From an uncultured Ignavibacteria bacterium (lineage in GTDB: Bacteria; Bacteroidota; Ignavibacteria; Kapaibacteriales; Kapaibacteriaceae), in NCBI GenBank assembly GCA_903939735.1, contig CAJAIA010000030.1, forward strand, positions 1-64,000: DNA of 64,000 bases, in the 5' to 3' direction. Positions 15,813 to 21,218 of this stretch are shown one piece after another. Position 1 is the stretch's first letter. Each line of letters starts with the position of its first letter. Under the pieces are notes generated by a model. That model searched no databases, was not told the origin of the DNA, and saw nothing but the letters and a program-made list of their open reading frames with translations. Position numbers and translations under genes: made by a program.

Positions 15813-16099
15813 TTGCGTATTCACTCTACCCTACTACTCGAATCAACAACGCGTAGTGCTTGTTTTCCCATTGTAAGACCTTCTCACAGCCCCAAACGTT
15901 CATGATATAGTAGCTCCTCATCCACTCCGATAGATCGTGTGGATGTAAGAACAAGTGACAGTTTTTGATTCGCTACAAATAGTGACATATTGTTACGTGA
16001 GATAAATGGCTGTTCGGATAATTTGCTAATGTGTCTTTTGACAACTGTCGACATTTTGTATATTGTCCACACTTGGTAGCACATACTGTGGATAGCATC
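15813..16099 (+). promoter_or_regulatory. Control region of the SOS-type cassette (gene-free stretch)
   Basis: The stretch 15738-16099 holds no gene. After the terminator it is AT-rich and carries two copies of a repeated element: GACATATTGTTA at 15984-15995 and GACATTTTGTA at 16050-16060. A third copy lies before imuB (16891-16901). Around the second copy are TTGACA at 16038-16043 and the palindrome TGTCGACA at 16046-16053. I read this as promoter plus operator of the repressor gene that follows. No exact TAnnTTTG box is present. Confidence 0.5.
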
Positions 16100-16852
16100 A
16101 TGCAAACAAAGACCCAACTTGGTACTCGTCATCGACAAGTACGAGAGAGCATACTCCGCCTATCGGTTGCTGACTATGCTGCAACGATTGGCGTTAAGGT
16201 CCCAACGGTGTACTCGTGGGAATCAGGTCGCACTGGCGTGCCCCAGGAGATTCTTGCCCTGTTGGAGCGCCGATACGGCGTATCGTCTGGGTGGTTGCTC
16301 ACAGGTTCTGGGTCGCCTACGACCATGCGTGATGACACTTCACCCTCACAGCCCAAGGGTGCAATTGAGCGCTTAGAAGAGCAGATCCAGGCAATGAAGA
16401 GTGTAATCGCAGAGCTCCGTGCCCAAGCTCCGCTCGTAGTCGCTCCAGCCCTACCTGGGCGCAGCGGTCCACGAATCCCCATGCTTTCACTGGGAGTCAG
16501 CGCGGGCTTGCCAGCAGCAGCCGACGACACAATCGAGCGTGAGATTGACCTAGCGGATATGCTCCTGGAGCATCCAGAGAGTACGTACTTCATCCGTGTT
16601 GTAGGTGATTCAATGACGGATGCCGGCATCAGCGATGGGGATACCCTCATTGTCGACTGTGCTATTCAGCCACGATCAGGTCAGATCGTCATAGCTAAGG
16701 TCTATGGCGAACTCACCGTGAAGCGTTACCTCAAGGTCGAAGGCCGTCCTATTCTACGGGCTGAAAATCGTCGCTACAAGGACATTGAAATCACAGCTGA
16801 TATGGACTTCACCATCGTAGGCGTGGTTCGGAGCTGCATCAAGAAGCTCTAG
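16100..16852 (+). CDS. XRE-type self-cleaving repressor of the LexA/UmuD (S24) family
   Basis: The 250-residue protein combines an N-terminal Cro/CI-type helix-turn-helix (about 10-65; VADYAATIGVKVPTVYSWE), a short coiled-coil (about 86-110) and a C-terminal S24 peptidase domain. The expected cleavage site is Ala135-Gly136 in SAGLP, the nucleophile is Ser171 (GDSM) and the general base is Lys208 (LTVKRY). Such proteins are inactivated by RecA-stimulated self-cleavage after DNA damage. It precedes imuB and dnaE2, so it probably controls them and itself. The start at 16100 leaves the operator-like repeats upstream; a longer in-frame start at 16031 would include them in the coding region. It is not a canonical winged-helix LexA. 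Confidence 0.9.
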   Translation: MQTKTQLGTRHRQVRESILRLSVADYAATIGVKVPTVYSWESGRTGVPQEILALLERRYGVSSGWLLTGSGSPTTMRDDTSPSQPKGAIERLEEQIQAMKSVIAELRAQAPLVVAPALPGRSGPRIPMLSLGVSAGLPAAADDTIEREIDLADMLLEHPESTYFIRVVGDSMTDAGISDGDTLIVDCAIQPRSGQIVIAKVYGELTVKRYLKVEGRPILRAENRRYKDIEITADMDFTIVGVVRSCIKKL

Positions 16853-16877
16853 GTTATCAACACACCGATTCTCGTTT

Positions 16878-16901
16878 TGTCAATGTTCTTGACATTTTGT
16901 A
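16878..16901 (+). promoter_or_regulatory. Candidate operator before imuB
   Basis: The inverted repeat TGTCAA (16878-16883), 5 bases, TTGACA (16889-16894) is perfect. It overlaps GACATTTTGTA (16891-16901), an 11-base copy of the element before the repressor gene. It lies 10-33 bases before the imuB ATG, where a bound repressor would block transcription. Confidence 0.55.
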
Positions 16902-16911
16902 GAATCGCGTA

Positions 16912-17850
16912 ATGATTATCACTCTCGCCCTTGACCCCGCAATATCCCCTGCCTCGTGGGATGCCCTAGTTGAGGTGGTGCACAGTTCAACACCACTACT
17001 GCTCGTACGAGACCATGGCATCCTACATGCGGGCACAGACAACATCGATGAGATTCGAACGAACGTTCGTCGTTGGTCTGCACGGGCTGCAATGGCTCCG
17101 GACCGAACGAGCTCAATGCTTTGTGCCTTCGAGGCAGTACCTGGCAGGCTCGATGCTCATGCATCTGCCGAGCATGTAAGCATCAATGTACTTCGTGACG
17201 TACCGGAACTTCAGATCGACGAGATATTCCTTGAGCGTCTACGATTATTCGGACTATCGAGCATTGGTACACTTCGAGGACTTTCAGAGCGACATCTACG
17301 AGCGCAGTTTGGCGATCTGGGTGTGCGACTCTATCGTCTCCTGCATACAACGTCGACGACGTTACCATTATTCCAGCCCCCTGACGAGATCCAAGTACGT
17401 GTGGCTTTCGATGATGCTACATGTGAGCCTGGACCTATCTACGAGGCACGTCAGCAGGCGTGTACAGAGATCATTACCCAGTTATCTGGTCGAGAAGCAT
17501 GGCGCGTTGATGTGGGAGTTCTAGATCGCTCAGGTGAGATCAGCGCACGACGTGGACGGATCATGCGGGTAGCAATAGCGACGCTACGACATCTAGAGAC
17601 GCATGTCGATGCGCTGATTCGACAGCTTCTGACGTCTGCACGACGGTGGTGGGGCCTTCGCATACGACTGACATCACTTCGGCTTCCCATTGGCGAGCAG
17701 ATAGCTCTGTTTGATCAGTCCAACTCCCTGCAGGATCTCAGAGTTTCGTTAGTACCCAAGTATGGCTCGGTGATTAAGGAGATCCGTATTCATAATCCGT
17801 GGTCGATTATTCCCGAGGACTACGCACGGATCATCGGACAACAGCAATGA
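16912..17850 (+). CDS. imuB: ImuB-like Y-family polymerase paralogue, N-terminally reduced
   Basis: ImuB is a catalytically dead Y-family protein that bridges the beta clamp and DnaE2 in damage-induced mutagenesis. Here it has only 312 residues; family members usually have about 450-550. Residues 1-75 align with the second half of the palm. The thumb-like helix-hairpin-helix is at about 104-145 (LRLFGLSSIGTLRGLSERHL) and the little-finger region at about 158-250. A clamp-binding motif QIALF lies at 263-267. The first ~100 residues of a normal palm are absent, and the 59-base gap upstream is too short to hold them. The stop overlaps the next start (ATGA). Confidence 0.8.
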   Translation: MIITLALDPAISPASWDALVEVVHSSTPLLLVRDHGILHAGTDNIDEIRTNVRRWSARAAMAPDRTSSMLCAFEAVPGRLDAHASAEHVSINVLRDVPELQIDEIFLERLRLFGLSSIGTLRGLSERHLRAQFGDLGVRLYRLLHTTSTTLPLFQPPDEIQVRVAFDDATCEPGPIYEARQQACTEIITQLSGREAWRVDVGVLDRSGEISARRGRIMRVAIATLRHLETHVDALIRQLLTSARRWWGLRIRLTSLRLPIGEQIALFDQSNSLQDLRVSLVPKYGSVIKEIRIHNPWSIIPEDYARIIGQQQ

Positions 17851-18083
17851 AGCTCGTGCTCGAATCTATTGATGTGGGATGCCAGTCTAGCATCCCCTAT
17901 GTGATCTGCTGGCGAAGCGGCACGTACAACATTGAGACGGTCATAGATAGTTGGTCAACACGGGGTCCGTGGTGGACGTCTGATGAACAACGCGAATACC
18001 TTCTCGTAAGTACGTCCTGCGGTGTGATGGAGATCTACCACAGTACCATTCAGGGATGGATGATTTCACGTTTGTACGATTAA
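17847..18083 (+). CDS. Small DUF6504-like protein of the mutasome operon
   Basis: This 78-residue protein starts at the ATG that overlaps the imuB stop by four bases and ends three bases before dnaE2. It resembles DUF6504, a small family found next to imuB or dnaE2 in other bacteria: shared features are the core CWRSGTYNIETVIDSW, the segment GPWWTSDEQRE, and the end GWMISRLYD. It has no signal peptide or membrane segment, so it should be cytoplasmic. No function is known. Its position suggests a stoichiometric partner of ImuB or DnaE2. The family match is from memory of the pattern and needs an HMM search. Confidence 0.7.
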   Translation: MKLVLESIDVGCQSSIPYVICWRSGTYNIETVIDSWSTRGPWWTSDEQREYLLVSTSCGVMEIYHSTIQGWMISRLYD

Positions 18084-18086
18084 CCG

Positions 18087-21000
18087 ATGTTCGGATCTCT
18101 CCATACGCGAAGTCACTTCTCATTTCTTGACGGAGCATCTTCTCCTGAAGAACTCGTTCTGGCTGCGTCACAACGCGGTCATACTGCACTTGTTCTCACA
18201 GACCTGTATGGTGTATACGGAGCCGTCCGCGTAGAACGTGCATGTAGTAGACACAACATCAAGTCGATTATGGGCTGCGACATTATCCTCGACGGTATAG
18301 CTGTGTCGCTCATCGCACGTTCTCACGTGGGATATCAACAGATCTGCTGTGTGCTAACACATCATCATCAGCAGGATGATGTACAGATGTTACTCGATGA
18401 GTCTAACTGCAATGATTGCATCATTATTGTTCACGGGACCGGACACGATCTTCTGCACGTTCGTGGTGTTGTTGATACGATTCACCATCCGCATGTCTAT
18501 ATCGGCATAGCGCATGATGCGCGTCCGTGGTCGAGACGAAGAACGGCACGGTTGGTCGACCTTGCGCATGACATGCAACGTCCGATTGTCGTCGCGCAAG
18601 ATGTACGATATGCTACACCGGATGCCTATGCAGTGCATGATCTTATGGTATGCATTCGGGAAGGGATCACGATGTTCGATCCACATCCTGAGCGCGCGGT
18701 GCACGACAAACACGCGCTATGGTCAGAGGACGACCTTCGCAAGGTTATCCCCTACGACGAGGCATTCAGCAATCTGTCATCTATTCTTGCGCAGTGTACA
18801 TTCTCGATCCTGCCGGAGCATATCACGCCTCCGAGAGCACGGATTCCGGAAGGGACCACGGCGATTGCGGTGCTGCACCAACTATGCGCAGAAATGATTC
18901 TTCGTCGTTATCAGGGTGTGAGACTTACACAAGCGCAGGCTCAAGTTGCCCATGAACTCGATGTTATTGAACGCTTAGAGCTTGCAGATTTTTTTCTAGT
19001 GGTTCATGAGGTCGTTTGTGAAGCGCGCGCGCGTGGCATTCGATGCTCCGGACGTGGCTCTGCAGCGAACTCTATCGTGTCCTATCTCCTGGGTATCACC
19101 GCGGTCTGCCCCCTAGAGCACAACCTTCTTTTCGAGCGATTCCTCCATACCGGACGTAAGGGAACACCAGACATTGACGTGGATTTCGATAGTGATCGTC
19201 GCAGTGAAGTGATTACTTGGATGGAGCATCGATTCGGAATTGATCATACCGCGATGACAGCTACGCTAATCACCTATCGCATGCGTATGGCGATTCGCGA
19301 TGCCGCAAAGGCGCTTGGATGGCCTGAAGATATCGTTCGAGCACTTTCAAAGAGTGTGCCTGGATGGACATCGAAAGATGTCTACAGCTATCGCAACGAT
19401 CTTGCACGTGTGTGTGGGGATGTTCCAATGCTGGATCTGCTTCTGCGCTGTGTGGATGCACTGCTTGGTCATCCACGCCACCTCGGTCTGCATTCAGGAG
19501 GGATGATCCTCTCTTCTCGACCACTATCACATTACACGCCAGTTCAGCGTTCAGCCAATGGCGTTGCCGTTGTGCAGTTCGATAAAGACGATGTCGAAGC
19601 TATGGGGCTAGTGAAGTTTGATGTACTCGGACTTCGTATGCTGGCGTGTATTAGTGAGTGCATTGAGTTGATACGAACACATCACGGTTCGACAATTGAT
19701 CTTGATACCATCCCACTTGACGACCAAGCGACGTTCGAACGGATACGCCGAGGTGAGACACTTGGAGTATTTCAGATCGAATCGCAGGGTCAGATGCATT
19801 TATTAGCGAAACACCAGCCGGAGACCTTCAACGATCTGATTATCGAAGTCGCACTGTTTCGTCCAGGTCCCTTACAAGGTGGCATGGTACACCCCTATAT
19901 CGCTCGACGTCGGGGTACTGAGCCAATCACCTATATGCATCCGGATCTTGAGCCAATACTCAAGGATACCCTCGGCATCATCCTCTTTCAAGAACAGGTG
20001 CTGGAGATCGCGCATCGCTTTGCAGGAATGCCCCTTGATCAAGCAGATGACTTTCGTGCGCTTGTGTCGAAGAATCGCGATCGTGAAATGATGGAACATA
20101 TGCGCAGCTCGTTCATCAACGGTGCTGTTGCACGAGGCGTGGACCCTGTAACTGCGGAGATAGTCTACGAGAAGGTATCGCACTTTGTGGGGTATGGCTT
20201 CTGTCGTTCGCATGCTGCTGCATTTGCCAAGACCGTCTATCAGAGTGCATGGCTGAAGACGCATCACCCAGCTGCCTACATGGCTGCATTCATGCAGCAT
20301 CGACCTGGGATGTATAATCTGATGACGCTCGAAGAGGAGGCCCGGCGCTGCGGTGTCGCTGTGCTCATGCCATGCATGCAGAACTCATCATTTCGCTATG
20401 GACTTACCGTTGACAGCGAGGGTGTGGTAGCAATCCAAAAACCGCTCACGGCTATTCGTGGCGTTGAACCTGATACAGCCCGAGCTATCATCTGGGAGCG
20501 ATCGCTACGTCCATTTGCTGATGTGAATGACATCGTCGATCGGCTGTCCTTTCTCCCACGTGATATTCTCGATACAATTGCTTTGAGTGGTGCACTTGAC
20601 CGTTGGGAACCAGATACTCGGCGAGCGCTGTGGATGGTTGGTGTTATCAAACAACGTATAACCTCGAGCGTACCGACACTGCTTGATATTCCTCATGTTC
20701 ATGAAGACGACATACCTGCGTTACCCAAGGTACGCGCCCAAGAACGCCTTGCATATGACTATATCTCGCATGGTGCTGCGCGAGTTCATCCTATGACGCT
20801 CTATCGTCGGACGCTGATAGATCTTGAGGTACGTACAATCGAAGTGCTATGTCGCTTACCACAGTCCAGTAGCGGAACGGTCACCACAGCCGGCATCGTC
20901 ATTCTGCGTCAAGCTCCACCAACTGCGCGTGGGATGTTGTTTGTGACCCTCGAGGACGAGACGGGGTTTCTTCAGTGTGCTGTCCCTCCGCAAGTACGGC

Positions 21001-21218
21001 AGCACTTTCGTGAGGAGCTGCGAAATGCGTCACTGGTTGTTCGGGGGAAGCTGCATGCTATCGGTGCATGGCGCTCGATCATGGTCGAGGAAGTACGCGT
21101 ATTGAACAACATGATTGGAGGATATCACGGTCATCTCTCCTATGCTGGTGGACGAGATACGCAGGAACTGGGTGTTCTGCCCGTACCTGATGAGTCGCTT
21201 TTCACGAACAACGGATAG
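18087..21218 (+). CDS. dnaE2: Error-prone DNA polymerase III alpha subunit DnaE2 (ImuC)
   Basis: DnaE2 is the translesion C-family polymerase of the mutasome. The 1043-residue length and the start LHTRSHFSFLDGASSPEELV fit DnaE2 rather than replicative DnaE1. Catalytic aspartates are visible at 362 and 364 (PDIDVDF) and 512 (VKFDVLG). A helix-hairpin-helix region and an OB-fold end (about 925-995) follow. The N-terminal PHP domain has lost metal ligands: the second histidine of HxH is Arg8, and the TDH motif reads TDLYG. It should therefore lack PHP exonuclease activity. It starts three bases after the DUF6504-like gene and ends eight bases before truA. Confidence 0.93.
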   Translation: MFGSLHTRSHFSFLDGASSPEELVLAASQRGHTALVLTDLYGVYGAVRVERACSRHNIKSIMGCDIILDGIAVSLIARSHVGYQQICCVLTHHHQQDDVQMLLDESNCNDCIIIVHGTGHDLLHVRGVVDTIHHPHVYIGIAHDARPWSRRRTARLVDLAHDMQRPIVVAQDVRYATPDAYAVHDLMVCIREGITMFDPHPERAVHDKHALWSEDDLRKVIPYDEAFSNLSSILAQCTFSILPEHITPPRARIPEGTTAIAVLHQLCAEMILRRYQGVRLTQAQAQVAHELDVIERLELADFFLVVHEVVCEARARGIRCSGRGSAANSIVSYLLGITAVCPLEHNLLFERFLHTGRKGTPDIDVDFDSDRRSEVITWMEHRFGIDHTAMTATLITYRMRMAIRDAAKALGWPEDIVRALSKSVPGWTSKDVYSYRNDLARVCGDVPMLDLLLRCVDALLGHPRHLGLHSGGMILSSRPLSHYTPVQRSANGVAVVQFDKDDVEAMGLVKFDVLGLRMLACISECIELIRTHHGSTIDLDTIPLDDQATFERIRRGETLGVFQIESQGQMHLLAKHQPETFNDLIIEVALFRPGPLQGGMVHPYIARRRGTEPITYMHPDLEPILKDTLGIILFQEQVLEIAHRFAGMPLDQADDFRALVSKNRDREMMEHMRSSFINGAVARGVDPVTAEIVYEKVSHFVGYGFCRSHAAAFAKTVYQSAWLKTHHPAAYMAAFMQHRPGMYNLMTLEEEARRCGVAVLMPCMQNSSFRYGLTVDSEGVVAIQKPLTAIRGVEPDTARAIIWERSLRPFADVNDIVDRLSFLPRDILDTIALSGALDRWEPDTRRALWMVGVIKQRITSSVPTLLDIPHVHEDDIPALPKVRAQERLAYDYISHGAARVHPMTLYRRTLIDLEVRTIEVLCRLPQSSSGTVTTAGIVILRQAPPTARGMLFVTLEDETGFLQCAVPPQVRQHFREELRNASLVVRGKLHAIGAWRSIMVEEVRVLNNMIGGYHGHLSYAGGRDTQELGVLPVPDESLFTNNG

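Follow-up and report, generated by a model that had tools for sequence, protein, structure and literature searches.

How might a mutasome be built and controlled in a bacterium in which neither ImuA nor a winged-helix LexA is detectable? This question is raised by a 64,000-nucleotide stretch of DNA (the window; positions 1 to 64,000 of contig CAJAIA010000030.1, assembly GCA_903939735.1) from an uncultured Ignavibacteria bacterium of the family Kapaibacteriaceae. A preliminary description, made from the letters alone, had proposed a reduced cassette of an S24 repressor, a short ImuB, a DUF6504-like protein and DnaE2. The cassette is real, and all four genes, which span 16100-21218, are intact; they encode a repressor, a Y-family-like protein (ImuY/iPolY), a 78-residue protein and DnaE2. 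We consider it likely that they form a damage-inducible split mutasome, for error-prone replication past DNA lesions, of the type that comprises iPolY, standalone ImuB-C and DnaE2.

The preliminary description had suggested looking for the gene order in related genomes. Among Ignavibacteria and Candidatus Kapaibacterium metagenome-assembled genomes (MAGs), the genus is represented by 10 other genomes, all of which have the order repressor-imuY-imuB-C-dnaE2; so do 9 of 12 genomes from elsewhere in the family, and this recurrence places the cassette beyond chance. The combination of iPolY, ImuB-C and DnaE2 extends further: two genomes from a different family have it, as do MAGs of Rhodothermales, Latescibacterota and Gemmatimonadota and an Abditibacteriota plasmid. 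Across about 80 loci compared, those with a standalone ImuB-C lack ImuA and most of those with a fused ImuB contain it; ImuB-C is a separate open reading frame (ORF), not fused to ImuB, in all kin of the present system. Within the window, the imuY stop codon overlaps the imuB-C start as ATGA and a gap of 3 bases (18084-18086) separates imuB-C from dnaE2, in agreement with the coupling of imuB, the small gene and dnaE2 that had been claimed.

The 78-residue protein matches Pfam DUF6504 just above the cut-off. When a profile was built from the kin of this protein alone, it recovered full-length ImuBs by their C-termini (E about 5e-4), and profile-profile comparison (hhalign) with 40-odd fused ImuB C-termini gave a probability of 94% (86% end to end). 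The Pfam model likewise matches residues 437-512 of a 518-residue Sphingobium ImuB that is recorded as a 'DUF6504 family protein'. Because the profiles and DUF6504 both match the C-termini of fused ImuBs, we identify the gene as a standalone ImuB-C, a form of about 80 residues previously reported in Deinococcus and elsewhere (PMC8072749). A 78-residue protein thus does lie between ImuB and DnaE2, as first described, but it is not an extra part: it is ImuB's own C-terminal domain, separately encoded, and the profile-profile match rules out a new DUF6504-like component. A literature search on DUF6504 returned nothing relevant.

In domain searches the imuY ORF itself gave no IMS match, and Pol IV was matched only marginally, in the thumb region. 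Alignments and AlphaFold2 models indicate that the first strand (MIITLALD) survives and that the fingers module after it is deleted internally. All 11 genomes of the genus leave the fingers columns of the alignment almost empty and all 11 others fill them, kin outside the genus being about 370-430 residues long with a full palm-fingers start; on this alignment, the fingers loss is confined to the host's genus. The ImuY model (predicted local distance difference test score, 88.5) passes from strand 2-6 directly to palm helix 13-26, where the AlphaFold2 model of a fingers-bearing relative (L051) has strand 2-6, helix 10-19, strands 25-29 and 32-35, helix 44-50, strand 55-58 and then palm helix 61-78. 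Palm strand 1, thumb, little finger and the clamp motif QIALF are retained, and after this motif the model contains a RecA-NT-like helix-strand at 273-293. Foldseek linked the ImuY model to Y-family polymerases in the PDB (E 1e-13, with a low global TM-score). Neither an SxDE motif in the palm hairpin nor a conserved carboxylate at the Dpo4 D7 position was found, and alignment and model together indicate that ImuY is a catalytically inactive Y-family protein. The reduction of ImuB proposed in the preliminary description therefore stands, but not the loss of its N-terminus, since the first strand is kept and the deletion is internal. A frameshift that would place the N-terminal part of imuB further upstream was also rejected: the gap between repressor and imuY is only 59 bases and the same short form is found genus-wide. 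ImuBs often carry deletions yet always keep the thumb, little finger and ImuB-C (PMC12926913), a rule that the fingerless ImuY fits, here within a split system.

DnaE2 matches the NCBIfam error-prone polymerase model at 1.5e-259, and Pfam agrees. In a tree made by a quick method, whose sequences do not include the DnaE2X rows of PMC12926913, the DnaE2s of split systems occupy their own branch (SH-aLRT 100) outside the ImuA-ImuB (DnaE2A) clade, and a second branch of split systems consists of a Bacillota pair.

Upstream of these genes, the repressor combines an XRE-type helix-turn-helix (HTH; Pfam HTH_3, residues 13-66) with a Peptidase_S24 domain whose predicted cleavage site (A135-G136), Ser171 and Lys208 are invariant across the family. 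It is the only S24 protein (PF00717) of the genome, which has no free UmuD. Winged-helix LexA (PF01726) was found neither in the repressor nor in the 14 family genomes searched, the host's included; the CI-type XRE/S24 repressor that had been described in place of winged-helix LexA is confirmed, with an S24 part apparently of UmuD type. Its score is 128.5 bits on the NCBIfam UmuD model (cut-off 110) and 82.9 on the LexA model (cut-off 110.95). On the UmuD model, repressors of this type reach 122-128 bits, and sister families yield 131-137 for their free UmuDs and 47-74 for their CI-like S24 proteins. A tree of S24 domains that does not contain the validated Bacteroidetes CI-type LexA proteins places the repressor among the UmuDs, in a group (99/92) to which E. 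coli UmuD belongs, and it stays beside the UmuDs with lower, only moderate support when CI-like rows are added. Because model scores and trees both favor UmuD for the S24 domain, we name the protein a UmuD-type XRE repressor; it is probably analogous to Acinetobacter UmuDAb.

Two further observations concern this protein class. In sister families, winged-helix LexA-like proteins of one clade (L249-L260, L265, L267) appear to have the S24 serine and lysine replaced (in L251, PDDAL for GMSM and VRHY for VKRL) and may be non-cleavable LexA paralogues. In a genome of another family (G030), an XRE-UmuD repressor (L238/L284) stands without an adjoining iPolY-dnaE2 cassette, next to a gene for a large, secreted-looking protein.

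A candidate operator, a palindrome with the consensus TTCTACA-TTT-TGTAGAA, lies over both predicted promoters of the operon. Matches at 13 or more of the 17 positions occur in 14 of 20 family regions upstream of the repressor, against 0.09 expected from dinucleotide shuffles, and the repressor-imuY intergenic copy is present in 10 of 11 genomes of the genus (shuffles 0.04, maximum 1). Scanning the genome by pattern matching only, we found exact copies solely at the two operon sites and a single-mismatch copy solely at C12:55078; five more sites have two mismatches, compared with two for a reversed control. The C12:55078 site is at the start of the gene for the genome's one active Y-family polymerase, and G003, G005, G007 and G013, of which one belongs to a different genus, also have the operator at this gene. 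Since this is the only other close match, the predicted regulon is limited to translesion synthesis, apparently comprising the translesion polymerases and the repressor itself. The polymerase in question (C12:55075-56308; L001, L173) is DinB-like, begins right after the operator as if leaderless and bears a RecA-NT-like tail, IDAINHKYGKNTLYVG. The additional two-mismatch matches of a wider family scan were discarded, as they were not conserved and were about as numerous as in the reversed control. Among them, an operator-like palindrome, TTCTACATTCTGTAGAT, lies about 60 bases upstream of a UppP/BacA-like gene in G020 (C146:6443; L198); it is not in relatives and is perhaps due to chance. A literature search on the SOS response of Kapabacteria returned nothing relevant.

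The regulator could instead be a non-canonical LexA of the Bacteroidetes CI type (PMC8565304) that governs a full SOS regulon through a diverged box. The two share a phylum, a CI/XRE-type HTH and a box geometry (CTAC-N5-GTAG here, CTAA-N5-TTAG there, with TTAC-N5-GTAA also reported). The distance between the repressor's UmuD-model scores and those of CI-like S24 proteins speaks against this identity, as do the trees, within their moderate support once CI-like rows are present, and the restriction of close operators to polymerase genes and the repressor, with none at recA. We regard this alternative as unlikely, though it survives better than any other.

Less probable again, and doubtful in our view, is that one protein fills two SOS roles: uncleaved, it would substitute for LexA, and its UmuD'-like fragment would associate with the error-prone polymerase (the active Y-polymerase, or else fingerless ImuY), such that derepression and polymerase activation followed from one cut. 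Conservation within the genus is far higher for the S24 domain (92%) than for the linker (51%) or for most ImuYs (43-46%), and the genome is devoid of free UmuD, both of which favor a dual role; UmuDAb, the nearest precedent, is reported not to supply UmuD function (PMC4807011).

A decaying, non-functional mutasome that lost imuA and part of imuB by drift might account for the missing domain and the fast divergence of ImuY, which shares 43-46% identity with most of the genus. Nearly all 20 genomes nevertheless keep the four reading frames intact, loss of the fingers is common to 11 of 11 genus members with no further decay, DnaE2 (53-96% identity among relatives) retains its catalytic aspartates (D362, D364 and D512), and both operators are maintained. 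Decay is accordingly very improbable. The absence of ImuA that had been claimed was borne out in the operon and in the 100%-complete genome, where a profile of 11 diverse ImuAs finds only RecA and RadA (the second RecA-like match, on C35, was rejected as ImuA on being identified as RadA), and matches in relatives are likewise of the RecA and RadA kinds only. Although cassette genes are scattered over several sites in some bacteria (PMC8072749), these searches, the unfused ImuB-C and the position of DnaE2 off the ImuA-ImuB branch make a canonical ImuA-ImuB-DnaE2 mutasome with its imuA elsewhere or overlooked the least credible alternative of all.

The split mutasome, as we envisage it, would operate as follows. 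The repressor would bind DNA at operators over its own promoter and those of imuY and the C12 Y-polymerase. Upon damage, RecA filaments would trigger its self-cleavage at A135-G136 via Ser171 and Lys208, derepressing three units (repressor, imuY operon and Y-polymerase). The non-polymerizing, fingerless ImuY would serve as the scaffold for complex assembly, holding the beta clamp by QIALF and DnaE2 by its thumb, and its RecA-NT-like tail would probably hold RecA and so replace the role of ImuA. ImuB-C, translated from the overlapping gene, would bind the PHP end of DnaE2, and DnaE2 would carry out mutagenic synthesis. Published models locate the DnaE2 contacts on the thumb and ImuB-C; because both are kept, these contacts are probably the usual ones rather than the different part-to-part contacts first suggested, with RecA in place of ImuA as the expected change. 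In D. deserti, imuY and dnaE2 are required for ultraviolet mutagenesis (PMC8072749).

Several observations weigh against parts of this model. The RecA-NT likeness of the 29-residue ImuY tail is not significant (profile score 8.0, equaled or exceeded in 8 of 100 column shuffles). The Y-polymerase operator is absent from several genus members, and recA has no matching operator. Finally, G002 and G007 carry unrelated genes between imuB-C and dnaE2, so tight coupling of these two genes is not essential. In two species of the genus such insertions amount to 3-4 kb (L050, 2557-5896; L032, G002), and that of G002 is a tandem family of secreted-looking proteins of about 310 residues.

Features of the mutasome locus are listed in the table below. 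The repressor start is assigned to the ATG at 16100, as a longer ORF from 16031 would cross the gene's own promoter and operator. The locus is flanked upstream by genes for an SDR oxidoreductase and a CAP/fn3 secreted protein, and downstream by genes for TruA and an M48 peptidase.

Table. Genes and predicted regulatory sites of the split mutasome locus (window coordinates).
Feature	Position	Strand	Evidence
Repressor, XRE-type HTH and UmuD-type S24	16100..16852	+	Pfam HTH_3 and Peptidase_S24; NCBIfam UmuD model; conservation; trees
ImuY/iPolY, 312 residues, predicted dead Y-family scaffold without fingers	16912..17850	+	Alignments, AlphaFold2, Foldseek, PDB profile search
Standalone ImuB-C (DUF6504-like), 78 residues	17847..18083	+	Pfam DUF6504; profile-profile match to fused ImuB C-termini, 94%
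DnaE2 error-prone polymerase, 1043 residues, split-mutasome clade	18087..21218	+	NCBIfam, Pfam, tree
Predicted sigma-70 promoter of repressor, TTGACA-17-TATTGT	16038..16066	+	Consensus scan, 10/12; weak evidence alone
Operator copy 1, GTCGACATTTTGTATAT, overlapping repressor promoter	16047..16063	+	Family upstream-region enrichment; genome scan
Predicted sigma-70 promoter of imuY, TTGTCA-17-TAGAAT	16877..16905	+	Consensus scan
Operator copy 2, CTTGACATTTTGTAGAA, over -10 box of imuY	16888..16904	+	Genus enrichment; genome scan

ImuA-less iPolY/ImuB-C/DnaE2 operons have been published (PMC8072749, PMC6511836, PMC12926913), including the Deinococcus lexA-imuY-imuB-C-dnaE2 operon and the 'DnaE2X' type, and the present operon is mostly of this kind. 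Three of its features are not in the cited papers: the fingerless iPolY, the UmuD-type XRE repressor that stands in for LexA and the regulon, predicted to be translesion-only. The genus offers a natural deletion experiment, a mutasome without scaffold fingers or ImuA, which narrows what is needed of ImuB to the palm core, thumb, little finger, clamp motif and ImuB-C. It also offers a candidate UmuD-derived LexA replacement, apparently independent of the Acinetobacter one; the operator is defined, the predicted regulon is small, and both are directly testable.

A comparison with the closest systems sets these features in context. The Deinococcus operon has a repressor, an inactive Y-family protein, an ImuB-C of about 80 residues and DnaE2 in the same order, also without ImuA; it belongs to another phylum, its repressor is LexA and the fingers deletion is particular to the present system. 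The DnaE2X-iPolY-ImuB-C-RecA type (PMC12926913) and the Kyrpidia-type operon (PMC6511836) share the standalone ImuB-C, the inactive PolY, a DnaE2 outside the ImuA-ImuB clade and the lack of ImuA, whereas here iPolY is fingerless, the regulator is not LexA and the RecA-NT motif is statistically unconfirmed. From the canonical ImuA-ImuB-DnaE2 system the locus retains the division of labor among scaffold, ImuB-C and DnaE2 and the clamp motif on the scaffold, but it has no ImuA, splits ImuB into two genes, has lost the fingers and draws its DnaE2 from another branch.

Two precedents exist for the repressor. Acinetobacter UmuDAb (PMC4807011) likewise joins a UmuD-type autoproteolytic domain to an N-terminal DNA-binding part and controls error-prone polymerases in a LexA-less genome, but it shows no HTH in domain searches and acts on umuDC, in contrast to the XRE HTH and predicted DnaE2/PolY targets here; because HTH and targets differ, the two probably arose independently. 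The Bacteroidetes CI-type LexA (PMC8565304), reported in a study that also describes UmuD homologues without a DNA-binding domain, replaces LexA in the same phylum with a CI/XRE-type HTH, an S24 domain and a palindrome of similar geometry, and the present repressor differs from it in its UmuD-type S24 domain, its CTAC-N5-GTAG box and a regulon apparently composed of translesion polymerases only.

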